A stretch of 64,000 nt of DNA from Nephrocerus scutellatus. Its lineage: Eukaryota; Arthropoda; Insecta; Diptera; Pipunculidae. A program made the translations under genes and the position numbers. The DNA is taken from NCBI GenBank assembly GCA_947095585.1, contig OX352762.1, forward strand, positions 31,720,669 to 31,784,668, read 5' to 3'. Positions within the stretch are counted from its first letter, which is position 1. Every line of letters begins with the position of its first letter. Positions 31,743 to 63,330 of the stretch are shown here, piece after piece. Below the pieces are notes generated by a model. It saw only the letters and a list, made by a program, of their open reading frames with translations, was not told the origin of the DNA and did not search any database.

Positions 31743-32440
31743 CTAAAAAAAAAACAACCCATAAAAAAATTTTTCATGTAAATTCTCTAATAGGAGATTT
31801 ACAAAAACTGTTGTCTATCGGAGGTACACATGTGTATTAAATTTGAAGAAAATCGGGTTAATTTTTTAAAAAAAAGTTATGGGGCCACACGAACCCCGTC
31901 CCGGGGTCTCCAAATTTTTTACAAAAAGTGTTGTCTATCGGAGGTACACATGTGTATTAAATTTGAAGAAAATCGGGTTAATTATTTTTTAAAAAAAGTT
32001 ATGGGGCCCCACGAACCCGGGCCCGGGGTCTCCAAATTTTTTACAAAAAGTGTTGTCTATCGGAGAAACACATGTGTATTTAATTTGAAGAAAATCGGGA
32101 AAATTTTTTTAAAAAAAGTTATAGGGCCCCACGAACCCGGGCCCGATCTCTCCAAAAATTTTACAAAAAGTGTTTTCCATCGGACATACACATTTGTACA
32201 AAATTTTAAAAAAATTGGGTAAATGTACAAAATTTAAAAAAAATCGGGTAAATTTTGTAAAATATTTGTATGGGACCCCGAGGTCCGATGGAAAGTATTG
32301 TCACCGGAAATACGCATGTGTGCAAAATGTGCCTTGGGAAGTGGGTTAAAAATTGATCGCAAGATTCCATGACAAACAAATCCACAAATCCACAAACAAA
32401 CCCACAAACAAACGGGCAAGTGAAGTTAATATAGAGAATT
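31700..32440 (+). repeat. Dispersed ~120-bp-repeat element, block 3
   Basis: The cleanest block. The leader has GATTTACCCATTTCCGTAT and TCCTGAGTC (31,716-31,742), then ACAACCCATAAAAAAATTTT and CATGTAAATTCTCTAA. ACACATGTGT-type landmarks at 31,826, 31,946, 32,068 and 32,188 give four units with spacings of 120, 122 and 120 bp. It closes with AAGTGGGTTAAAAATTGATC, a short CAAACAAA run and TATAGAGAATTTAAAAA. The leader motif also occurs in the palindrome spacer near 58,000. Confidence 0.85.
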
Positions 32441-43915: not shown

Positions 43916-45690
43916 ATGAAGACTACGTGGATATAGACCCAACGGAAACAGGAACTGAGAGCATACGCCAAAGAATTTGGGTTTGACGAAACAGGCACTG
44001 TGGAAGAACTCCGCAGACGCTTTGCCGCCCTACTCAAAGAGGAGGAACTCAAGCCCGAAACAAAGAAGCGACTTCTCATCCGCAAGTCATCTTCCCCACA
44101 AAAACGAGAAGACTACCAGCATACTCAACAACGCAGATCTAAACACACCGGTTCCACCCTGCTGCACACCCGCATACTCACTTGTCATCGACCAAGTTCG
44201 AAAGTAGTCGGTGAAGTTTGACGGTATGCGTGACCCATTAGCCTTAATCGAACGCGTCGAGGAGCTATCACTGGTCTATGGGATTAACAACGATTTACTT
44301 CCTCGGATGATGCCAGAACTGCTCCAAGATCGAGCTTTGACCTGGTACCGAAATAGCAACGCTCAGTGAAGTGTCTTTGGATTAACGTGGATACCTCCAG
44401 TGAATGGTTTACCCCACGGTCCTCTTCGGACTTGGATTCGTTATACGACAATCAACGTCCATCATAGACTGATGTGCCAGTATTAACTCAATGGTTAGAG
44501 CAGGACCTATCTTAAGTCCCTGCCGATCTCTGGTTTTTCGACAACCGGTTGATCTATGCAACTCCACAGAGAGCACATCATCGCACCGGTAACATCAGGA
44601 CGGTCTTCTGATGCACCAAAGACTTTTGGTAACATCAGGACCTGTTCTGATGTTACCATGCTAGTGTTCTACCCGCATTTGGGTAGTAAAGCACAGCCAC
44701 TACGTAGGCCAAAGCCAGAATAAACTGGACCTCAACCAATGGTTGACCCAGACTCAGCTAACCTCCGAAGAGATTAACCTTATCTATGGGCGGAATCAAC
44801 CCCCGTAGTACCAACGCGACCTTGGTGAGATCTGCCATCAAGGGACTCAGCTCTTTCAGAATGAGTGCCTGGGCGATTGCAAAAGCAGACCCTGGCAGCA
44901 CGTTCGTCCGGAACCTCGTATCCTATCATTTGACACTAGGGTGTTTCAAGTCCTAGGCCGCCCGGGATAGAAACTATCCCGAGCACTACCGCCTGCAGTA
45001 TGTACGGTAGGGGCGCTTGATACAAAAGACAGCGCCCATCTTTGACATTCTTTAGCACAAACCCACTGCCACTATAATCATCCGAGTAAGACCAAGTATC
45101 AAACTTATAATAACCAGACGATTAAGTAAGATACAGCGGCCCCCTCGGGGGGGGGAGCAACGCTCATTGGAAAACATTGGAAACTTTTAGGAACGACTTT
45201 CTGAAGTTTTTCCTCCCAACACGTTTTTTTGAGCGGTTGAACGATGACATCCGCCAAAGACTCGCAGTACACCGAGGATCAGAAGCTCGAGCGAATTTTT
45301 CGCAACATCCGTCAGGGGTACCAGCTCTATATAAAGCGGAAGGATTTCGCCTGCCTCGAGGAGTTGGTTAACTTAGCCGAAGACTTCGAATGTCTTAACA
45401 ACGGTGTGTCGAAACCTCGCCACGATCACCAAGGAGATACAGAATCAAGTCGCCCAGATACCAAGAGAACAAGTGGACCCACGATCAGCATGTCAACGCT
45501 GCGGCCAACAAGGGCATTTTTTCCGTGAATGTCGAAACCCCAAAGTACTGTTTTCTTGGGAATGTGGTAAGCGAAATACGTGGATCATTGACTACTGCCA
45601 CCGACCGTCGGGAGCAGTAGACGGGTTCCATCGAAGCCAGGAGATGATGGAACCCCAGAACCCCTACAGCGGGATGACGACCGCATAGCC
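43916..45690 (+). pseudogene. Gypsy copy B gag, interrupted
   Basis: The N-terminal part (43,949-44,095) has ELRAYAKEFGFDETGTVEEL and RRRFAALL, resembling the SAP-like start of some insect gypsy gags. Capsid part 1 (44,210-44,365) ends LLQDRALTWYRNSNA. A 790-bp insertion follows (44,366-45,155). Capsid part 2 resumes at 45,167 with HWKTLETFRNDFLKFFLP and, after a 1-bp frameshift near 45,290, YTEDQKLERIFRNIRQGY. A CCHC knuckle CQRCGQQGHFFREC lies at 45,490-45,533, followed by a second, damaged Cys motif. An early stop (WI-stop) lies near 43,936. Gag is therefore dead in this copy, but both sides of the insertion are clearly recognisable, which makes the insertion boundaries reliable. Confidence 0.88.
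44366..45155 (+). mobile_element. 790-bp hairpin-dense insertion in gag, unknown class
   Basis: Flanked by an exact 11-bp direct repeat, AGCAACGCTCA (44,355-44,365 and 45,156-45,166); removing the insert with one repeat restores the gag reading frame. It starts GTGAAGTGTC and ends in CCCCCTCGGGGGGGGG. It has no terminal inverted repeat, no poly(A) tail and no open frame of note. It is less AT-rich than its host. It contains at least twelve separate perfect or near-perfect stems, including a 12-bp one at 44,627-44,658, 6 bp at 44,669-44,686, 6 bp at 44,732-44,746, 8 bp at 44,963-44,981, 6 bp at 44,986-45,010, 7 bp at 45,011-45,037 and a C5/G5 end hairpin. A stretch at 44,484-44,545 resembles a tRNA D-arm and anticodon arm. 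The class is unknown; a SINE-like or structured-RNA retroposon is my inference. Confidence 0.75.
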
Positions 45691-45702
45691 GCGACGATAA
45701 TC

Positions 45703-48700
45703 ATGGAAGGAGAAGCAGTCACCGCTACAGTCGAGACGGGGGCTACGAGGAGTTTCATCAGAGAAGCCTATGCATGCGAGGTACAACACCCAGGACAGGC
45801 AGTGAGGGCAGCAGTATCAGTACGGATGGCGAATGTCACGACCAGACGAGTAGAACAGGCATTCAAATCCATGGTGCGATTTGGACACAGCAGTGTCAAC
45901 ATGCAGCTACTTATTCTCTCGGAGGCCATCGACAAAGTAATCTTAGGGCTGTATTTTCTTGGTCGAGCAAAAGCAACGATTAGCATAGGTGGACATAACC
46001 TCACTCTCGGCGATAGTAAAGTCACGAAACAACTAGAATAACCTCAGGTACGTGCAGTGCAAAGCCATACCCCCAGTCCTTTCTGGACCAAGAACTAAAG
46101 AAATTTGAGTCGATGAGCGGCGTGTCCAACATCACTATCATAAAATCGTGATGCAGGACGACCGACCATTAAAGCAACGCTACTTCCCGAAGAACCCAGC
46201 CATGCAAAACATTATAGACGAAGAAATTAACGACTTATTGGAAAAAGAGTGCATTGAACCATCCAAAAGCCCATTCGGGGCCCCAATTTTCTTGGTAAAG
46301 AAGAAGACCGGGAAATGGAGACCTTGTGTGGACTACAGGCAGCATAACTCCAAGTCTGTTCCAGATACGCACCTACTTCCGAGAATTCACCTCATTTTGG
46401 ACCGTCTCAGGAACGCGAAATACATAAGTAGCCTGGACCTCAAAAACGGGTACTGGCAAATTCCGATGGAAGAAGGCAGCAAATGGTACACAGCGTACAC
46501 GGTACCAGTCCTTGGAGTCTTTCAATGGCAAGTCATGCCTTTTGATCTACATTCGGCTCCCGCAACGTTCCAGCGAGCATTAGACCAGGTCATCGGCCCA
46601 GACATGGAACCTCATGCTTTCACCTATCTAGACGACATCGTCGTGACTGGAGAATCCCTGAAGACCACATGACACATCCGAAAGAGGTACTACGACAACT
46701 CTACGTAAGGCAAGCTTGAAAATCAACGTGGAGAAATGTGAGTTCTTTAAGAAAGAAATTAAATATCTTGGACACATGGTCAGCGAACAAGCGATCCACA
46801 CAGACCCGGAGAAAATCGCTGCCATACGAGAACTTCGACCGCCCACTTCCCTGCGGGAACTACGCCGTTGTCTAGGAATCGCCTCGAGGAACAGGAGATT
46901 CGTACCCGAGTTCGCCAAGGTTGTCCAACCCCTAACTAGGGGAAACACTGGAGGTGGACCGACGCACAACAAGCTGCGATCAACTAAAGGATCATCACAC
47001 AAGCACCCGTTCTCGCCTGCTCGGATTTCAAGAAGAAATTCACACTACAGACAGATGCCAGCGACTATGGATTAGGAGTCGTACGCACACAAGACATCGA
47101 TGACCAAGAGAGGGTTATTGCCTACGCCAGTCGTCATTTAAATTCAGCGGAACGTAGCTATTCGCCCCAAGAGTCGGAAAAGGAGTGTCTAGCCATAGTG
47201 TGGGGCGTCCGCAAGATGCGACCCTACCTGGAAGGATATCAATTTACGATCGTCATGGACCTCCAAGCGCTGAAATGGCTTAACTCAATCGAGAGTCCAT
47301 CTGGACGCTCGTTGGGCCTTGGAGTTGCAGCAATTCACCTACGACATCCAGTATCGACGAGGGAAGTTGAACGTGATCGCCGACGCACTATCACATTAGC
47401 CACGAGAAATCATGCGAACGGCAGCCGTTGAGAACGACGATTTAAAAAGGTGCAGGTGGTTAGAGAAAAGAAAGTAGGAGGTCAAGGGAAAGCTGAAGAA
47501 AGTCCCGGATTACATAATCGAGGGCAACGAACTACATCGTCACATCTCCCATCAGACCACAGACGAGGATTGCACGCCCTGGAAATTGTGCGTCCCAAAA
47601 TTCATACGAGCACGAGTCCTGAAGGAAAACTACGACGAACCCACCGCCGGACATTTGGGGATTCGTAAGAAAATCGCACTAGTCGCCAACCGATACTACT
47701 GGCCGGACATGTTCCGGGATATCAGCCGATATGTCCGCCGGTACGAATCGTCGGTCGATCCAGCAGAAACCGGCCGGAGCCATGTTGTCTCAGATCGCAA
47801 ACTGACCAAGCACCAGTTTACCACCCCATACACGCCCCAGGAAAACCCCACAGAGAGAACAAATCGCACAATAAAGACAATGGTCGCCCAATTCGTTGTC
47901 GAACAACAAAAGTGGTGGGACGAACTCCCCCCCGAGATCTCATTGGCGATAAACTCCAGTGAAGCAGAATCGACAGGTTTCAGTCCAGCATTTCTCACAC
48001 AGGGCCAAGAGCCGCGCTTACCGCAAACACTCTTCGACGAGAAGACAATCCGGGACAGGACAGATAGAACAATCCTCAAAGGAAAGGTCCGAATACTTGA
48101 AAGAAGTTTTCCACATCGTACGTCGAAACTTGAAGCAGGCAGCCCAGAACCAAGCTAGGTACTACAACCTCCGCAGATGGTCATGGAAACCCACCATAGG
48201 ACAGACGGTCCTATTGAAACAACACCACCACCCAGGTATGATGGACGACCTAAAGGACTTCAAAACGGAATACACCTCGGTGTCACCAGACACGTCACAG
48301 TCGGAGTTACCAAGTAACCTGAAGAAATACCCGCGATCCATCGGACGATTCACTTCCATGGGTCCAAGCATCAGCAACACCGGATGGAGAAGGCGGTGAG
48401 GTACAGCGACACGGCGGGCTCACAACTAACCACGGCGGCCTCAAAACACACAACAGCAGGAGAAAACTACAAAACAGCAGCAGGAACCAAGTTTCACAGT
48501 AAGTACAGCGAAGGTCCTACTTGTTTAAGGGGCGGCGAAGACGATCGATGGCAGTAAGGGCGAAAATAACGCAAGCAAGAACGAAGGAAACACATGGCAG
48601 CAGGATCAAAGTGCACAGCAAGAACAAAAGAGACGGCAGCAAGAACGAAGGAAAAATACGACAGCAGGGACAAAGTGCATATCAAGAGCAAAAGAGATGA

Positions 48701-52349: not shown

Positions 52350-53290
52350 GTCAATGCAAGGAAATGCAATTTCTGCAGTCTCTAGTAGCACGAACCTGGG
52401 TTGCGATGGTGAATATGGAATCGTCAGCAAACGAAGCTAATATTAATATCGCGTTGTGATCGCTATCATACGGCAATAGCGGGATCTTATTCTCGTTGAC
52501 CGTTTCTATTTGCAGTCGAGCATCTGCAATACACAAATCTAAATATGAGTTTCCGGAAGGGTAACTTGGTTTCACCGGGCTATATAATTTCAATTTATGT
52601 TTGACCTGGTTGTCATCAACAAATTGCTTAAGAAAGTTGCCTCTTACATTCGCTGTTGAGTCCAACCAAGCCTGATGTTTCGCGTATAGGTTTCCAGCTA
52701 GGATGAAATAGTATCTATATATCTAATCCTAGTTTCTCAAGCTCGACGTTAAACTGATTATCTGCAGGAGACAAGACAACTATTATTCCGAAGTTGCAGC
52801 GAAATAATAGTCGTCTCTAGAGAGTTAAAGTTTGCAACATCACTCCTATAATTTGATTTAAAACTTAGTTGTTTTCGGATCAGCACTGCTGTTCCACCAC
52901 ATCGAATCGCGTTCTTTCTGTCCGTCCGTGTAAAGTCGCAGTTTTTTAATTCTATTTTATGTCTTGCGTTAAGCTTTGTATCGTTTAGAAGGAGTCGTCT
53001 GGAGACCGAGATTATGGTGTTGACATTTAAAGCAGCTATTCTGAGTGCCCCGCATCTAAGTTCAGACATTCAAAAGACCACGAAACAAATTCAAAATAGT
53101 GTTTAGCTTTGATCTGCTACATCTTTGGCAAGAGTGTTTATTCTCCAAATTTTCATTTGGAGAATTAGAAACCGTATATGTGCCAATATTATTTCGCGCT
53201 ATGTCAGCAAATAAAACTCCCGTTCTCACGATATTTTCAATAGTATTAGTCTTTTGAGTGGCATTTTGTTTAGCCACTCGCTTTTTGGCT
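52350..53290 (-). pseudogene. Jockey-clade LINE endonuclease fragment (left arm)
   Basis: Minus strand: 53,277-53,062 is the end of an ORF1-like frame. 53,069-52,758 starts an APE-type endonuclease (LRIAALNVNTIISVSRRLLL, TKLNARHKIELKNCDFTR, GGTAVLIRK). 52,665-52,351 continues it (SYLDLCIADARLQ, LPYDSDHNAILI, with the S-D-H catalytic motif). A stop or frame break separates the two halves. The mirror copy is at 62,175-63,330. Confidence 0.85.
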
Positions 53291-53704
53291 AGTAGTCGGT
53301 CATTGAGGTTTTCATAGACCTCGTTAGGAAGCAGGATGTCCTGCTTCTCCTTGCTGCTCCTTGCCTGCAGCTTTGTGCACCTTGCACTCTCCCGGACTAT
53401 GCAACGTTTGGAACTTAACGCACCTGAACTCCATATTGCAATTTAATTTTTTTTCCTTTTCGATATAAGTGCAGAATTCAGTCTTTGTCTCATTTAGTAT
53501 GCCTTTCCACTTGTCTAAATTTTTACTTTCTGTAACATTTAATACTAATTTGTTTTTGTTAATGTTTTTTTTAACTAAATTGCCCCTTTCCTATTGTTCC
53601 ATCATAAATTAAATTAAGCTGTCTGCTGCCTTCCTTGAATATATTAATTGGTGGTGTTTTATTTTTTGTGCTCACTGTTTTGTCTGCGTTTTTTTGTGAT
53701 TTTT

Positions 53705-54175
53705 AAATTCTTTATATTAACTTCGCGTGCCCGTGGCTGGCTAACTGGCTGGCTGGTGGGCAGAATCTTGTGATCAATTTTTAAACCATACAAATTTTAT
53801 GAAAAAAGTACCCAATTTTCTTTAAGTTTTATACGCATGTATATCTCCGATTAACAACACTTTTTGTAAAAATTTTGTAGCGAACGGGCCCCGGGGTCGG
53901 GGGGCACCCATACAAATTGTTTATAAAATTTACCCGATTTTCTTCAAATTTTATATGCATGTGTATCTCCGATGGACAACACTTTTTGTAAAAAATTTTA
54001 TAAAATCAATTACCCGATTTTCTTAAAATTTTATATGCATGTGTATCTCCTATAGACAACACTTTTTGTAAAAATTTGTTAGTGAAATGGCCCCGGGGTC
54101 GGGGGGCTCTCTAACAAAAATTTTAAAAAATATACCCAATCATCGATAGTGACTCTCCTCCCTCCGAAGGAGACG
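53705..54175 (-). repeat. Dispersed ~120-bp-repeat element, left-arm copy
   Basis: Reverse orientation. It ends with AATTCTTTATATTAAC near 53,710, then a short GGCTGGCTAACTGGCTGGCT run and GATCAATTTTTAAACC. Three units follow, with landmarks GCATGTATATCTCCGAT, GCATGTGTATCTCCGAT and GCATGTGTATCTCCTAT. Mirror copy at 61,430-61,860. Confidence 0.8.
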
Positions 54176-54289
54176 TCAAAGACATTTTGTTTTTTTTTTC
54201 AGTTATTTTAGACACTATTGTTTCGAGAAAATTTTTGTGCTTTAATAATTTAATGTATTTCCACGCGACCACAAACGAATGAAACATAT

Positions 54290-54450
54290 CGATGTAAAGT
54301 ACAATTTCATTTGAGAAGCTGCCGCCAACAAGGAAATCAAGTTGCAATACATCTCAAACAACGATTCAGTTGCGGATATGATGACAAAAGGACCCGGTAG
54401 AATATTGTTTCAGAAACATCGTGAAAGTTTAAATTTATACTTTCGTTGAT
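54290..54450 (+). pseudogene. Ty1/copia RNase H tail (left arm)
   Basis: The plus frame reads HIDVKYNFI, a stop where an R-E pair is usual, then EIKLQYISNNDSVADMMTKG and a final ESLNLYFR. This is the characteristic C-terminus of copia-type RNase H (KHIDVKYHFIRE...VADMLTK). It is only about 55 codons long. Mirror copy at 61,140-61,310 on the minus strand. Confidence 0.85.
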
Positions 54451-54534
54451 TAATTTTTGGTTTTGATTTTATTAAATTAAACTTTTAACGTAGAGTTCTT
54501 AACTAAAATTGAATTGTGTTAACGGATCAAATTA

Positions 54535-54880
54535 AAGCCGTATTTTATTTGCCGAGGAACAACAACAATTGCTTCTTTGGAATTGTGAAAACCTGCTGTT
54601 TGGCTGGTTTTGACATTCAAATTCCGAAATCGCTCGGCAAATAAAATGCAGCTTAAGAGGCGGTGACAGAATATTAATTTGTCACTTGCTCAATACAATA
54701 ATAGCTGTATTTTATTGCCGAGGAATAAGGAATTCGAATGACAACACCAGCCAAACAGCAGGTATTCTTATTCCAAAGAAGGAATAAGATAGTGCAATTG
54801 TTGTTGTAATTTCTTATTCCTCGGCAAATAAATGCAGCTAATAGCTGTATTTTATTTGAATTCGAATTGAAAACCTGCTT
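54535..54880. repeat. Two head-to-head MITE copies (left arm)
   Basis: Copy a (about 54,535-54,660) and copy b (about 54,700-54,848) have inverted termini of the type AGCTGTATTTTATTTGCC. They are in opposite orientation to each other, judged by the position of AGCCAAACAGCAGG. A third partial end follows at about 54,850. The same family is at 46-195. Confidence 0.75.
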
Positions 54881-55650
54881 TTTTTGAAACTTTGCACATA
54901 TGCGTATTTGGAAAAATTTGGAGCCCCTCGGGCCTCGGGCCTCAGGGCTTTAAATGAAATTACCTAGTTTGTAGCTTAAGCCGCAGAGCGCTGCTTACAA
55001 GTTAGCATCTCATTTATTGTCACAGATTGGGTTACTTGCTTTAAGTTTAACAATTTTCGTAATGTTAAGTGTTGATATCAGTAATTAATTAATTTATTTG
55101 CCTGCTGGCTGCATAGCTCTTGGGTGTGAGACTGTCCGTAACGCAAATCCAACTATTTCTGTATCATTCCGAAGCTCATCTCAGCTTCTGGAATCATCTG
55201 TAACACTTCATCTGCCTTGTACCCCTTCCATTGACCGCAGCACAAAACTAGACTTTGAAATTTTCAAATGCAGTCTCGCCATCGAATGCATGAGGATTCA
55301 AAATTGTTGTTGACAGTGGATAACCCACTACCCATCGTTGTAGGAGCACTACCGGTAATTTTTGGCAGAAAAAGAAGAAAATTTATTATTTAGGCTCACT
55401 TTTGGTCCCATAAAAAGCTGAGAAATAAGGTCCATCTGTACAGAGATCCGCAGTGTACAGATAAGGCAAGCTAGTGGACGCCAGGTATCCAGATACATCA
55501 TTTCACACTGGGCCTTATCATCGACACTGGTCGTATGATACCTTAAACACAGCAGATACCGGTTAGAAGACGAACAGCATTAAAAAAGGCATCAATTGCT
55601 AGATCGCCTACAATATTCGTTGCTGTTATTGTGCAGCTGTATTTTTCATA
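54881..55650. other. Unassigned part of the left arm
   Basis: Non-coding, and mirrored at about 59,890-60,665. It contains GGGCCTCGGGCCTC and the segment with TGGGACCAAAAGTGAGC (as read on the mirror arm), probably the 3' part of the neighbouring LINE. No protein motif recognised. Confidence 0.4.
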
Positions 55651-56990
55651 ACTTTTAAGTGATGGAAGTGATCGGGCCTAAGGGGCTCCGAATAAAAGCC
55701 GTGCTAGAAAACCTAAACATTTCGCAGCATTTATGGCGACGGTAAATATGTAGTCATTCCAACGAAGCATTGCGATAACGCACATACTGAGAATTGCGAG
55801 ATTTTTAGTTTCCTCGATGCAAGTGCCATTCATGGATAATGGCATGGGATTTAGGATTCGCTTAGACGACAGGAGACAGCATTGGGTTTTGGAAGCGTTA
55901 AATTCTACTCGATTGACTGTCTAGGTCAGAATCAAACGTGCATGTTTGAGTTCCACATGAGAATTGGAGGGACGTTCCTCAAACTTATATGAGAAGCTGA
56001 GAGTGCTGTCGGCAGCGATATAGTGAATTGGTTTGGAAGTCACAGATAATAGATCATTTATAAAAATGAGGAAGAGTGTCGGAGACAAAACAGAGCCCTG
56101 GGGAACACTAAGTAAGTAATGAAGTTTAGACTTGAAACCGTCCAATACAACTCAAATTGAGTGATCCAAAAGATAGCTTCTAATCCAGTGAAGCAGTTTA
56201 TCTTCGACTCCATAAGCACGCATTTTGGACAAAACTCTGTCAAATGCCTTATCGAGTGCAACAGCTTTGCTTTCTCCAAATTGATGCAAAGACCGGTTCC
56301 ACTGTTCGGTGAGATATACCATCAAATCACCAGTAGAACGTTGCCCACAAAATCCATACTACCGCACTAAGGATTCCGTTGGTTTCAAGATATTTTTTGA
56401 GCTGAAAATTGATCAGCGTTTACATGACCTTGGTAAGATTGGATGTAAGTGCAATGGGTCAGTACGAAGAAGGAGACGACGGCTTCCTTTTTTTGGGTAT
56501 GGGCTGGACAAAGGCTGTTTTCCTACTTCTCGGGAAGAGTCCAGAAGAATAGGACAGATTGAAAAGCTTACGCAATGGTAATGCCAGCTTGGAAGGACAC
56601 CTCTTCAGAACTATTGGGGAAATATCATATGGCCCACCGGATTTGTGAGTGTTGAGATCGTTTAAAACTCTAGAAATTGCACGAGTACGAATGAATATCT
56701 ATCCCATAGAGTGTTTAATACTCTGAGGGTCAGGAGGCAGCATTGCACAATCTGGAAGCGTGGAGCTAGTTGTGAAATGCACAGCAAACATATTGGCCTT
56801 TTCTAAAGAGCTGACAACTGGAATGTCATTAAAAATGAGTGTTGGACTCGACGACAAGGCTGTCTTTTTAATTATTTTCACGAATTACCAAGAATTGTTA
56901 CTACCTTTGGGACATTGTAGTATTTTTTGCCTCAATTTTTGGTTGTAGGCGAATTTGACTCGCCGAAGATGGTCATTGCAATCATTTATG
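55650..56990 (-). pseudogene. Jockey-like LINE RT fragment (left arm)
   Basis: Minus strand, many frame breaks: the pre-RT segment (IKKTALSSSPTLIFNDIP), then the PRSRKTAFVQPIPKK box, KVM.TLINFQLKKYLE, and 56,145-55,921 with PQGSVLSPTLFLIFINDLLS and YIAADSTLSF, where the catalytic YADD is damaged. It is mirrored at 58,500-59,900. Same family as 6,932-7,360. Confidence 0.85.
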
Positions 56991-56999
56991 ACACGTTTA

Positions 57000-57780
57000 A
57001 ATGATAGTCGTGCAGTGCTTACCACTAATAAAAATCTCCAAATCATCCCCATAACCAATGGCGATGTAGCCTGATCTGTGAAGATCGACTAGAAGATTGT
57101 CAATGACTAGTGATTATAGATGTGGAGAAAGCACTCCTCCTTGGAGATATCCCTTAACTGCAGCCATGGGCAGAGACACTCTCCCCGAGGAGAAAATAAT
57201 ATCTAGACTTACAAGCAATGGTCCGTATCCAATGATTGGTGGAGTCTTTGATACCTCTGCTCCTGATTGCCATTGCAAAAGTGTCGTAGCCTGTGTTATC
57301 TAAAGCGCCCTCAACAACGAGGAAGGCACACAGGACCACTTCCTTGGAACGAAAAGTTATTTTTATCTTTTTTACAAGATAAAGAAGGGCACCTTCTTTG
57401 CTTTTGCCTTTCCTGTACGCAAAATGACTTGAGTGCAGAGGGGTAAACAATTCTAACCGGCCTCTAAATGAACATCAATAAGTCTACATGGTTTTAAGGA
57501 TGAATGATGTTAGACTTATAGGTCTGTATGATTTAGGCATCTCACTGGGCCTATTGTCTGGTTTGGGGATAAATATCACATTTACCTGTCTCCAGATAGT
57601 AGGAATGTACCCCCAGTTGTAGCTGGCTCTAAATAAAGCAATCATACCCGGTAGGATGAGATCGATTGCCTTCTGCAGAAGTGCTCGAAAGATCCCATCA
57701 CCGTTAGGAGCTTTGAGAGGTTTAAAAGAGCCTACTACCCATTTAACCTTAACCGGGCTGAAGATTTTACCGGACAAACT
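57000..57780 (-). pseudogene. R1-like LINE reverse transcriptase
   Basis: Minus strand from 57,777: FKPLKAPNGDGIFRALLQKA, LPGMIALFRASY, FIPKPDNRPSEMPKSYRPI; from 57,450: PLHSSHFAYRKGKSKEGALL and VVEGALDNTGYDTF; then QGGVLSP and GYIAIGYGDDLEIFISG near 57,050, the RT active site as YGDD. The motif order is that of R1/LOA-type elements. The segment 57,158-57,000 is also the inner end of the inverted repeat, while 57,159-57,780 lies in the spacer, so the right arm holds only the active-site part. Confidence 0.8.
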
Positions 57781-58500: not shown

Positions 58501-58559
58501 CTAGTATTTTCAAGGTGCTTTACTACACGTTTTAGATTGGTGCAGCATTTTAACAACAT

Positions 58560-59900
58560 CATTTAAACGTGTCATAAATGATTGCAATGCTCATCTTCGG
58601 CGAGTCAAATTCGCCTACGAGCGAAAATTGAGGCAAAAAATGCTACAATGTCCCAAAGGTAGTAAAAATATTTGCTCATTTGCGAAAAGAATCAAAAATA
58701 CAGCCTCGTCGTCCATTCCAACGCTCATTTATAATGACACTCCAGATGTCAACTCTAAAGACAAAGCCAATCTGTTTGCTGCACATTTTGCAGCTAGCTC
58801 CACGCTTCCAGATTGTGCATTGATACCGCCTGCACCCCCGAGTATTGAACACTCTATGGGACAGATCTTCAATCGTACTCGTACAGTTGCTAGAGTTTTA
58901 AACGATCTCAACACTCACAAATCCGGTGGGCCATATGATATTTCCCCAATAGTTCTGAAGAGGTGTCCTTCCAAGCTGGCATTACCATTGCGTAAGCTTT
59001 TCAATCTGTCCTATTCTTCTGGACTCTTCCCGAGAAGTAGGAAAACAGCCTTTGTCCAGCCCATACCCAAAAAAAGGAAGCCGTCGTCTCCTTCTTCGTA
59101 CTGACCCATTGCACTTACATCCAATCTTACCAAGGTCATGGAAACGCTGATCAATTTTCAGCTCAAGAAATATCTTGAAACCAACGGAATCCTTAGTGCG
59201 GTAGTATGGATTTTGTGGGCAACGTTCTACTGGTGATTTGATGGTATATCTCACCGAACAGTGGAACCGGTCTTTGCATCAATTTGGAGAAAGCAAAGCT
59301 GTTGCACTCGATAAGGCATTTGACAGAGTTTTGTCCAAAATGCGTGCTTATGGAGTCGAAGATAAACTGCTTCACTGGATTAGAAGCTATCTTTTGGATC
59401 ACTCAATTTGAGTTGTATTGGACGGTTTCAAGTCTAAACTTCATTACTTACTTAGTGTTCCCCAGGGCTCTGTTTTGTCTCCGACACTCTTCCTCATTTT
59501 TATAAATGATCTATTATCTGTGACTTCCAAACCAATTCACTATATCGCTGCCGACAGCACTCTCAGCTTCTCATATAAGTTTGAGGAACGTCCCTCCAAT
59601 TCTCATGTGGAACTCAAACATGCACGTTTGATTCTGACCTAGACAGTCAATCGAGTAGAATTTAACGCTTCCAAAACCCAATGCTGTCTCCTGTCGTCTA
59701 AGCGAATCCTAAATCCCATGCCATTATCCATGAATGGCACTTGCATCGAAGAAACTAAAAATCTCGCAATTCTCAGTATGTGCGTTATCGCAATGCTTCG
59801 TTGGAATGACTACATATTTACCGTCGCCATAAATGCTGCGAAATGTTTAGGTTTTCTAGCACGGCTTTTATTCGGAGCCCCTTAGGCCCGATCACTTCCA
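58560..59900 (+). pseudogene. Jockey-like LINE RT fragment (right arm)
   Basis: 58,628-59,104 is open for 158 codons: pre-RT segment, IEHSMGQIFNRTRTVARVL, LNDLNTHKSGGPYDISPIVL and LFPRSRKTAFVQPIPKKRK. Breaks follow, with ALTSNLTKVMETLINFQLKK, then PQGSVLSPTLFLIFINDLLS and YIAADSTLSF (59,418-59,642). It resembles the scraps at 6,932-7,360 and 16,150-16,320. Mirror of the left-arm copy but slightly more complete upstream. Confidence 0.85.
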
Positions 59901-60699
59901 TCACTTAAAAGTTATGAAAAATACAGCTGCACAATAACAGCAACGGATATTGTAGGCGATCTAGCAATTGATGCCTTTTTTAATGCTGTTCGTCTTCTAA
60001 CCGGTATCTGCTGTGTTTAAGGTATCATACGACCAGTGTCGATGATAAGGCCCAGTGTGAAATGATGTATCTAGATACCTGGCGTCCAGTAGCTTGCCTT
60101 ATCTGTACACTGCGGATCTCTGTACAGATGGACCTTATTTCTCAGCTTTTTATGGGACCAAAAGTGAGCCTAAATAATAAATTTTCTTCTTTTTCTGCCA
60201 AAAATTACCGGTAGTGCTCCTACAACGATGGGTAGTGGGTTATCCACTGTCAACAACAATTTTGAATCCTCATGCATTCGATGGCGAGACTGCATTTGAA
60301 AATTTCAAAGTCTAGTTTTGTGCTGCGGTCAATGGAAGGGGTAGAAGGCAGATGAAGTGTTACAGATGATTCCAGAAGCTGAGATGAGCTTCGGAATGAT
60401 ACAGAAATAGTTGGATTTGCGTTACGGACAGTCCCACACCCAAGAGCTATGCAGCTAGCAGGCAAATAAATTAATTAATTACTGATATCAACACTTAACA
60501 TTACGAAAATTTTTAAACTTAAAGCAAGTAACCCAATCTGTGACAATAAATGAGATGCTAACTTGTAAGCAGCGCTCTGCGGCTTAAGCTACAAACTAGG
60601 TAATTTTATTTAAAGCCCTCTGGCCCGACGCACGAGGGGCTCCAAATTTTTCCAAATACGCATATGTGCAAAGTTTCAAAAAAAGCAGGTTTTCAATTC

Positions 60700-61030
60700 G
60701 AATTCAAATAAAATACAGCTATTAGCTGCATTTATTTGCCGAGGAATAAGAAATTACAACAACAATTGCACTATCTTATTCCTTCTTTGGAATAAGAATA
60801 CCTGCTGTTTGGCTGGTTTTGTCATTCGAATTCCTTATTCCTCGGCAATAAAATACAGCTATTATTGAATTGAGCAAGTGACAAATTAATATTCTGTCAC
60901 CGCCTCTTAAGCTGCATTTTAATTGCCGAGCGATTTCGGAATTTGAATGTCAAAACCAGCCAAACAGCAGGTTTTCACAATTCCAAAGAAGCAATTGTTG
61001 TTGTTCCTCGGCAAATAAAATACGGCTTTA
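60700..61030. repeat. Two head-to-head MITE copies (right arm)
   Basis: Mirror of 54,535-54,880. AAATACAGCTATTAGCTGC marks the outer end and TCGGCAAATAAAATACGGC the inner one. Confidence 0.75.
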
Positions 61031-61139
61031 ATTTGATCCGTTAACACAATTCAATTTTAGTTAAGAACTCTACGTTAAAAGTTTAATTTAATAAAATCAA
61101 AACCAAAAATTAATCAACGAAAGTATAAATTTAAACTTT

Positions 61140-61310
61140 CACGATGTTTCTGAAACAATATTCTACCGGGTCCTTTTGTCATCATATCCGCAACTGAATC
61201 GTTGTTTGAGATGTATTGCAACTTGATTTCCTTGTTGGCGGCAGCTTCTCAAATGAAATTGTACTTTACATCGATATGTTTCATTCGTTTGTGGTCGCGT
61301 GGAAATACAT
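61140..61310 (-). pseudogene. Ty1/copia RNase H tail (right arm)
   Basis: Mirror of 54,290-54,450, reading HIDVKYNFI and VADMMTKG on the minus strand. Confidence 0.85.
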
Positions 61311-61429
61311 TAAATTATTAAAGCACAAAAATTTTCTCGAAACAATAGTGTCTAAAATAACTGAAAAAAAAACAAAATGTCTTTGACGTCTCCTTCGGAG
61401 GGAGGAGAGTCACTATCGATGATTGGGTA

Positions 61430-61860
61430 TATTTTTTAAAATTATTGTTAGAGAGCCCCCCGACCCCGGGGCCATTTCACTAACAAATTTTTACAAAAAG
61501 TGTTGTCTATAGGAGATACACATGCATATAAAATTTTAAGAAAATCGGGTAATTGATTTTATAAAATGTTTTACAAAAAGTGTTGTCCATCGGAGATACA
61601 CATGCATATAAAATTTGAAGAAAATCGGGTAAATTTTGTAAACAATTTGTATGGGTGCCCCCCGACCCCGGGGCCCGTTCGCTACAAAATTTTTACAAAA
61701 AGTGTTGTTAATCGGAGATATACATGCGTATAAAACTTAAAGAAAATTGGGTACTTTTTTCATAAAATTTGTATGGTTTAAAAATTGATCACAAGATTCT
61801 GCCCACCAGCCAGCCAGTTAGCCAGCCACGGGCACGCGAAGTTAATATAAAGAATTTAAA
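61430..61860 (+). repeat. Dispersed ~120-bp-repeat element, right-arm copy
   Basis: Mirror of 53,705-54,175: three units around ACACATGCATATAAAATTT, then GATCACAAGATTCTGCCC, an AGCCAGCCAGTTAGCCAGCC run and GTTAATATAAAGAATTT. Confidence 0.8.
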
Positions 61861-62099
61861 AATCACAAAAAAACGCAGACAAAACAGTGAGCACAAAAAA
61901 TAAAACACCACCAATTAATATATTCAAGGAAGGCAGCAAACAGCTTAATTTAATTTATGATGGAACAATAGGAAAGGGGCAATTTAGTTAAAAAAAACAT
62001 TAACAAAAACAAATTAGTATTAAATGTTACAGAAAGTAAAAATTTAGACAAGTGGAAAGGCATACTAAATGAGACAAAGACTGAATTCTGCACTTATAT

Positions 62100-63330
62100 C
62101 GAAAAGGAAAAAAAATTAAATTGCAATATGGAGTTCAGGTGCGTTAAGTTCCAAACGTTGCATAGTCCGGGAGAGTGCAAGGTGCACAAAGCTGCAGGCA
62201 AGGAGAAGCAGGACATCCTGCTCCTGACGAGGTCTATGAAAACCTCAATGACCGACTACTAGCCAAAAAGCGAGTGGCTAAACAAAATGCCACTCAAAAG
62301 ACTAATACTATTGAAAATATCGTGAAAACGGGAGTTTTATTTGCTGACATAGCGCGAAATAATATTGGCACATATACGGTTTCTAATTCTCCAAATGAAA
62401 ATTTGGAGAATAAACACTCTTGCCAAAGATGTAGCAGATCAGAGCTAAACACTATTTTGAATTTGTTTCGTGGTCTTTTGAATGTCTGAACTTAGATGCG
62501 GGGCCCTCAGAATAGCTGCTTTAAATGTCAACACCATAATCTCGGTCTCCAGACGACTCCTTCTAAACGATACAAAGCTTAACGCAAGACATAAAATAGA
62601 ATTAAAAAACTGCGACTTTACACGGACGGACAGAAAGAACGCGATTCGATGTGGTGGAACAGCAGTGCTGATCCGAAAACAACTAAGTTTTAAATCAAAT
62701 TATAGGAGTGATGTTGCAAACTTTAACTCTCTAGAGACGACTATTATTTCGCTGCAACTTCGGAATAATAGTTGTCTTGTCTCCTGCAGATAATCAGTTT
62801 AACGTCGAGCTTGAGAAACTAGGATTAGATATATAGATACTATTTCATCCTAGCTGGAAACCTATACGCGAAACATCAGGCTTGGTTGGACTCAACAGCG
62901 AATGTAAGAGGCAACTTTCTTAAGCAATTTGTTGATGACAACCAGGTCAAACATAAATTGAAATTATACAGCCCGGTGAAACCAAGTTACCCTTCCGGAA
63001 ACTCATATTTAGATTTGTGTATTGCATATGCGCGACTGCAAATAGAAACGGTCAACGAGAATAAGATCCCGCAATTGCCGTATGATAGCGATCACAACGC
63101 GATATTAATAGTAGCTTCGTTTGCTGACGATTCCATATTCACCATCGCAACCCAGGTTCGTGCTACTAGAGACTGCAGAAATTGCATTTCCTTGTCTGAA
63201 GTTCCTAATAATAGGAATCTGACGAACGAGGAGTGTAATCTCTGCATTGAAAGACTGAATTCGGTGATTCGGTCGAGTATTAATTCGACAAACAGAAATT
63301 TAACCTTTAATCATGCCACAAATTCAGACG
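62100..63330 (+). pseudogene. Jockey-clade LINE ORF1 end and endonuclease (right arm)
   Basis: 62,175-62,489 is the end of an ORF1-like frame (ENKHSCQRCSRSELNTILNL). 62,482-62,793 begins the APE endonuclease with LRIAALNVNTI. 62,886-63,353 is open for 155 codons (SYLDLCIAYARLQIE, LPYDSDHNAILIV) and extends past the point where the left arm is deleted. The catalytic S-D-H segment is present. RT is missing: copia sequence follows. Confidence 0.85.

Follow-up and report, generated by a model that had tools for sequence, protein, structure and literature searches.

A non-coding retroelement family with an R1-type 3' end, found inside and outside the rDNA of the fly Nephrocerus scutellatus, is very probably mobilised by R1

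tRNA-derived SINEs are short, non-coding, LINE-dependent elements with target duplications, and the family described here is likewise short and non-coding, yet no tRNA head was found in it and no poly(A) tail is visible. Its closest described counterparts are the R2/R1 hybrid SIDEs of Drosophila (Eickbush and Eickbush 2012, PMC3414825), which are reported from four species as non-coding elements with an R2 ribozyme, an R1 3' end and 14-bp duplications at the R1 site of the 28S gene, and which are mixed into tandem R1 arrays in D. willistoni. The lack of coding capacity, the R1 3' end, the site, the duplications and the place in R1 arrays recur here; the head of our family was not recognised by Rfam as R2 or HDV-like, and unlike those SIDEs the family has many copies outside rDNA and shares heads and tails with elements of ~170 bp. 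Persaeus, a CR1-derived SIDE of Lepidoptera (PMC6740152), is also a short non-LTR derivative that is widely spread together with its partner LINE, but that partner is CR1 rather than R1. Short, internally deleted non-LTR derivatives are termed rare in both accounts (PMC3414825, PMC6740152), and we found no paper in the open-licence literature on an R1-tailed SIDE with another kind of head. The R1 LINE itself resembles our family in 3' UTR, target site, duplication length and off-target preference, but carries an ORF2 with endonuclease and reverse transcriptase (RT), whereas the element here is non-coding and begins with a different head. In a published account of R1, 14-bp duplications separate the members of tandem arrays, and insertions outside the 28S gene have duplications of 3 to 14 bp and are identical to the target over 4-9 bp close to the cut in the lower strand (PMC2718515).

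The element was found in a 64,000-nt stretch of N. scutellatus DNA (the window), where an insert of 790 bp between exact 11-bp repeats splits a reading frame that we read as gypsy-like gag (Table 1). An RT lies downstream of the two pieces at 46148-46672, and neither piece, to the left or the right of the insert, matched Pfam. The left gag segment (44200-44365) has at least 40 matches in the genome, the window's own included (40 scored of 67 candidates), and in all four relatives fetched from these matches the site is uninterrupted, with one copy of the 11-mer (one or two changes) and the flanks joined with a gap of 0. The coordinates, the 11-bp duplication and the interruption of gag, as set out in a preliminary description made from the letters alone, are thus confirmed, and its remark that the insert has no inverted ends, no poly(A) and no ORF was borne out: the longest open stretch in six frames is 64 aa, which leaves the insert without coding capacity, no poly(A) is visible in it, and the repeat listing holds no inverted repeat linking its two ends. 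A DNA transposon or MITE is rejected, as terminal inverted repeats joining the ends of the insert are absent.

Table 1. Features of the insert and its surroundings (positions in the window)
Feature	Position	Strand	Remark
Target site duplication, copy 1	44355..44365	.	AGCAACGCTCA; sense TGAGCGTTGCT
Target site duplication, copy 2	45156..45166	.	exact repeat of copy 1
Reading frame left of the insertion, read as gypsy-like gag	44208..44365	+	named from position and sequence
Reading frame right of the insertion, read as gypsy-like gag	45156..45353	+	RT downstream
Non-autonomous element, very probably R1-dependent	44366..45155	-	5' end 45155, 3' end 44366; copies with shared ends
5'-terminal hairpin CCCCC-GA-GGGGG with extra Cs	45140..45155	-	29-nt end at 346 places
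37-nt block in common with R1 3' UTRs	44668..44704	-	86-89% identity
12-bp hairpin, strongest local fold	44627..44658	-	similar hairpin in a related second family (L047, L036)
3' region homologous to R1 3' UTR	44366..44572	-	by alignment; ~200 nt
Stem AGGAC/GTCCC, part of the stem at 44500 of the preliminary description	44502..44520	-	R1 and related elements carry compensatory changes
Stem CGTGG/CCACG near the 3' end	44386..44418	-	paired in 15 of 15 sequences, one with a compensatory change

A genome search with the insert returned 53 matches, at least 40 of them near full length (the window's own included), a count which is a lower bound as only 40 of 2773 candidates were scored and from which copies of less than 750 aligned bases had been dropped (5 of 45). 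The 39 other near-full matches are 90-97% identical to the insert. Both ends are common to the copies, the flanking duplications differ among them, and 38 of the 40 are flanked by an exact repeat of at least 9 bp; the 27 whose repeat lacks GTCCCTAT (two of them at a variant site on contig C6, three in a single duplicated unit) have a mean repeat of 13.0 bp, compared with 3.5 in 702 mismatched flank pairs. The 29-nt end CCCCCGAGGGGGCCGCTGTATCTTACTTA occurs at 346 places in the genome (up to 3 mismatches; relatives that have the head alone in common are taken in) and at none in a reversed control. From exact matches to this end outside the near-full set, 40 further loci were picked by hand, and hence non-randomly: 15 have no R1-type 3' end, whilst 25 have the same 3' end as the insert, and 18 of these 25 show duplications of at least 9 bp (0 of 600 control pairs), the other seven having both ends and no duplication of 9 bp. 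The insert is a mobile element. In this respect the preliminary description, which had proposed a mobile element inserted at a staggered cut and had pointed to a genome search for many copies with the same ends and different duplications, was right. At C3:55348617-55364302 (L040, L041) three near-full copies have an identical 17-bp duplication and partial copies share the left flank, which indicates duplication there of a larger unit that included the element. The C run at the 5' end exceeds 20 bases in one copy (L013, C1 near 129.21 Mb) and varies in length in others; this variation suggests that cDNA synthesis finishes with slippage or untemplated addition.

The last 53 nt of the insert (44366-44418) are identical in two R1s with an RT upstream (R1_L042, R1_L043a) and in two ORF2-less R1 derivatives (R1_L045, R1_L052c); L052a, another R1 that has an RT, differs there by one change, and the remaining R1 rows diverge more. 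As judged by sequence comparison, this identity is the strongest single link to R1. Aligned with three R1 sequences, the 3' region is 71-76% identical over 210-237 columns. The R1 LINEs in the C6 arrays carry an endonuclease (PF14529) and an RT (PF00078) according to Pfam, and the best PDB match of the endonuclease is that of R1Bmks ORF2 (2ei9). Three R1 copies of ~2.4 kb between R1-site duplications (L043:6303-8724, L052:2714-5160 and L052:5177-7624) keep part of ORF1 and the 3' UTR and have no ORF2 match; these are larger internally deleted R1s.

On contig C6, where 14 near-full copies lie, 12 have the R1-site repeat of 28S, TGTCCCTAT(C/T)TAC(T), on their flanks; at least 12 bases of it are present in each of the 12, in the form AGTA(G/A)ATAGGGACA, which is TGTCCCTAT(C/T)TACT read as its reverse complement. 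In this fly's own 28S gene TGTCCCTATCTACT, which we take to be the R1 duplication, comes after GGATTAACGAGATTCCTTC, the site reading TGTCCCTATTTACT. At L046 the 28S gene lies in two parts (Rfam), with the same reading of the site; an R1 fragment with RT and a pair of element copies occupy the space between these parts, and the duplication separates each from the next. R1 and the element are interspersed in the C6 arrays, with R1-site duplications between them and copies stacked in tandem. Members of the family on C6 insert at the R1 site of 28S with a 14-bp duplication, and the focal copy sits in gag with one of 11 bp. The R1-site flanks on C6, the interrupted 28S gene at L046 and the R1-type 3' end at 44366 all place the sense strand on the minus strand; the preliminary description had read the antisense.

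Many copies, the focal one included, lie outside rDNA, and the sites examined resemble the R1 site. The first set of copies gave 22 unique non-28S sites; 10 of these have TGT close to where the duplication begins (10.7% in background windows), and 6 have TGT(C/T)C (0.7%). A larger collection of 39 unique non-28S sites, from this set and that of the further loci, was what remained of 65 copies after removal of nine with a duplication below 9 bp, eight repeat sites and nine 28S-like sites; around the first cut, 6.05 of 11 positions agree with the 28S R1 target, compared with 4.42 in controls, where the offset was picked for the best match in sites and controls alike and the controls, up to 40 draws per locus, are non-independent. 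Because the offset maximises the match, the per-position frequencies (T at 0 in 85%, T at +2 in 87%) are inflated. The duplications at 22 of the 39 sites are 13 or 14 bp. The focal site, read in the sense direction, agrees with the R1 target at positions 0 and +1 and disagrees at +2, a strongly preferred position. This off-target preference agrees with the behaviour described for R1 (PMC2718515).

The R1-type 3' end, the 28S R1 site and the R1-like targets outside rDNA indicate a non-autonomous element apparently mobilised by R1, and we consider it very probable that the insert is a copy of a non-coding, SIDE-like retroelement family that R1 LINEs mobilise in trans. The RNA of the element would correspond to the minus strand, running from a head with a 5' hairpin through a structured body to a 3' UTR of R1 type, and would be transcribed either by read-through from 28S or from a promoter of its own. 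R1 protein would bind the structure of the 3' UTR, its endonuclease would nick the bottom strand directly before a TGT(C/T)C-like sequence, target-primed reverse transcription would begin at the 3' end of the RNA, and a cut in the top strand, mostly 13-14 bp further on, would give rise to the target duplication. As a class of its own, the "new mobile RNA element" of the preliminary description did not hold up, given the R1-type 3' end, target and duplications; the family is a variant of R1-dependent, SIDE-like elements, distinguished by its copies beyond the rDNA and by relatives of modular make-up. It shows a probable parasite of an element directed to rDNA spreading into the rest of the genome, and its dozens of natural target sites and 3' ends may help to establish which features of DNA and RNA the R1 protein recognises.

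The stems listed in the preliminary description are present in the sequence, and the insert folds more stably than shuffled sequence on both strands, more so on the minus: the minimum free energy is -263.7 on the plus strand (shuffled mean -221.1, z -5.4) and -304.0 on the minus (shuffled mean -250.0, z -8.0), with 0 of 40 shuffles as low in either case, whilst seven control stretches of the window (plus strand only, 16 shuffles each) gave z of -0.4 to -2.0. Perfect stems of at least 6 bp number seven in the insert and 2.4 in shuffles, of which 1 in 200 reaches seven; however, at least 11 of 161 tiled 790-nt stretches of the window (mean 4.5) hold 8 to 11, so the stem count alone is unexceptional. 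In steps of 100 nt the strongest signal is z -6.8 on the plus strand at 44566-44665, which holds the 12-bp hairpin, followed by -3.9 in the next step; the remaining steps of the insert range from +1.1 to -2.7 on either strand, except for -4.2 on the minus strand in the step after 44566-44665, and a gag stretch outside the insert (45566-45665) reaches -4.5. The 12-bp hairpin was not seen in the R1 3' UTR rows that were folded. Eight 3' UTRs of R1 or its derivatives gave fold z of -1.8 to -3.4, and the related L047 and L036 stretches gave -5.6 and -4.9.

The preliminary description had held that pairing itself seems selected, and had named covariance among copies as a check. Covariation in 40 close copies is small (4 pairs and 11 cells with double changes, compared with 1.6 and 1.8 in shuffles, maximum 5 and 5), and divergent R1 3' UTRs were therefore added. 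In an alignment of the 3' region of 15 sequences (three of the family, six R1s with RT upstream, three ORF2-less R1 derivatives and three related), changes on both sides occur in 8 of 39 predicted pairs compared with 5.1 when shuffled (3 of 500 as high), and double-change cells number 28 compared with 9.2 (0 of 500); slid controls gave 0-3 pairs and 0-11 cells, and the structure was predicted from the very alignment scored, which biases these figures in its favour. Further pair types went in the opposite direction, 18 compared with 20.1 shuffled. Part of the stem described at 44500 is among the best supported in this region. Across the whole element (84 rows) double-change cells number 44, compared with 8.3 shuffled and 12-25 slid, but the 15 double-change pairs are not above the slid controls (11-21). 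When the pairs of the insert are traced in relatives, 130 of 185 are kept in L047 (13 of them by compensation) and 55 broken, whilst 36 of 76 are broken in R1_L042. Pairing thus appears, from these alignments, to be conserved in part of the 3' region, where the earlier claim stands by its compensatory changes, and selected pairing over the whole body is weakly supported.

At the other end of the element, sense positions 1-330 were compared with two R1s and one ORF2-less derivative and matched none of them, so internal deletion of an R1 from these lineages does not by itself account for the element. The extra Cs at the 5' hairpin number nine in the focal copy and five or six in 30 of 40 copies. 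Elements of ~165-180 bp lie between R1-site duplications at L036:3153-3316, L042:4815-4990, L045:245-417, L047:4982-5162 and L052:9555-9725; most have a 5' hairpin, their tail is near ...AAGCGCGGGGCT..., and they are apparently another R1-site non-autonomous family. The first ~80 nt of the head recur in one of them (~170 bp, at L045). Up to ~460 nt of the head recur with another tail in dispersed copies; eight of the 15 loci without an R1-type 3' end were looked at, without a control for duplications, and six of the eight have duplications of at least 12 bp. L054, L062, L075, L079, L082 and L088 combine the family head with a tail like that of the ~170-bp elements and have duplications of 12-17 bp. 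From these shared segments we infer that the family exchanges heads and tails with the ~170-bp R1-site elements as modules. Several of the R1-site elements begin with short hairpins of differing sequence, GAACC-GTGA-GGTTC, ACCC-GTGA-GGGT, GACCC-GAG-GGGTC and CCCCC-GA-GGGGG; as the test used allows G-U pairs, 40% of random positions pass it at 4 bp and 20% at 5 bp, and at such rates the observation rests on the recurrent pattern and not on the count. A reading that we regard as speculative and rather doubtful is that the heads, several of them opening with a short hairpin whose sequence varies, are an undescribed 5' processing or capping module which replaces the R2 ribozyme, in modular R1-parasitic RNAs whose heads and tails recombine and which have escaped rDNA genome-wide.

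R2 cuts the 28S gene after TTAAGG, and the head could instead be the fly's own R2 5' ribozyme, freeing the RNA from the 28S cotranscript and joined to an R1 3' end, so that the family would be an exact R2/R1 hybrid SIDE. The site, the duplications and the arrays agree with the Drosophila elements, which do have an R2 ribozyme and an R1 3' end in four species (PMC3414825), but Rfam found no family for the insert at curated or permissive thresholds (E up to 5) and no match to the ~175-bp sister element, and the hairpin that opens the 5' end does not resemble an HDV-like ribozyme's first pairing strand. One form of R2 5' junction (28S to GGTAGC, then non-C) occurs at 0 places in the genome, a pattern which typical R2 junctions would escape. 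With these points set together we judge the hybrid unlikely. Two Rfam matches to R2_retro_el (RF00524), at 49.6 bits, lie on the minus strand of L042 (6314-6426 and 7262-7374), and for the RT of the LINE beside them LINE-1 ORF2 ranks higher than R2 among the best PDB matches.

Another alternative is an ordinary tRNA-derived SINE that depends on RNA polymerase III for its transcription; the preliminary description had taken a tRNA-like stretch (44484-44545), read on the plus strand, as a hint of a SINE-like origin. That hint failed: the stretch lies within the R1 3' UTR homology in the opposite sense and away from the 5' end of the sense strand, and ARAGORN, run with the bacterial code, found no tRNA, which makes such an origin very improbable. 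The strong structure and the absence of an ORF would also suit a processed copy of a structured cellular RNA with no life cycle of its own, but with no Rfam family, and with subfamilies, R1 arrays, modular relatives and an R1 3' end, this is the least credible of the readings.

Elsewhere in the window, 52357-57005 and 58558-63194 form an inverted duplication of 4.6 kb at 98% identity, and a 120-bp tandem repeat at 31798-32224 has diverged relatives near 17.3-18.0, 53.8-54.1 and 61.4-61.8 kb. An O-fucosyltransferase in the window points to a fly host, perhaps close to the hoverflies: its identity is 78% to the Eupeodes corollae protein and lower to the other named flies listed.
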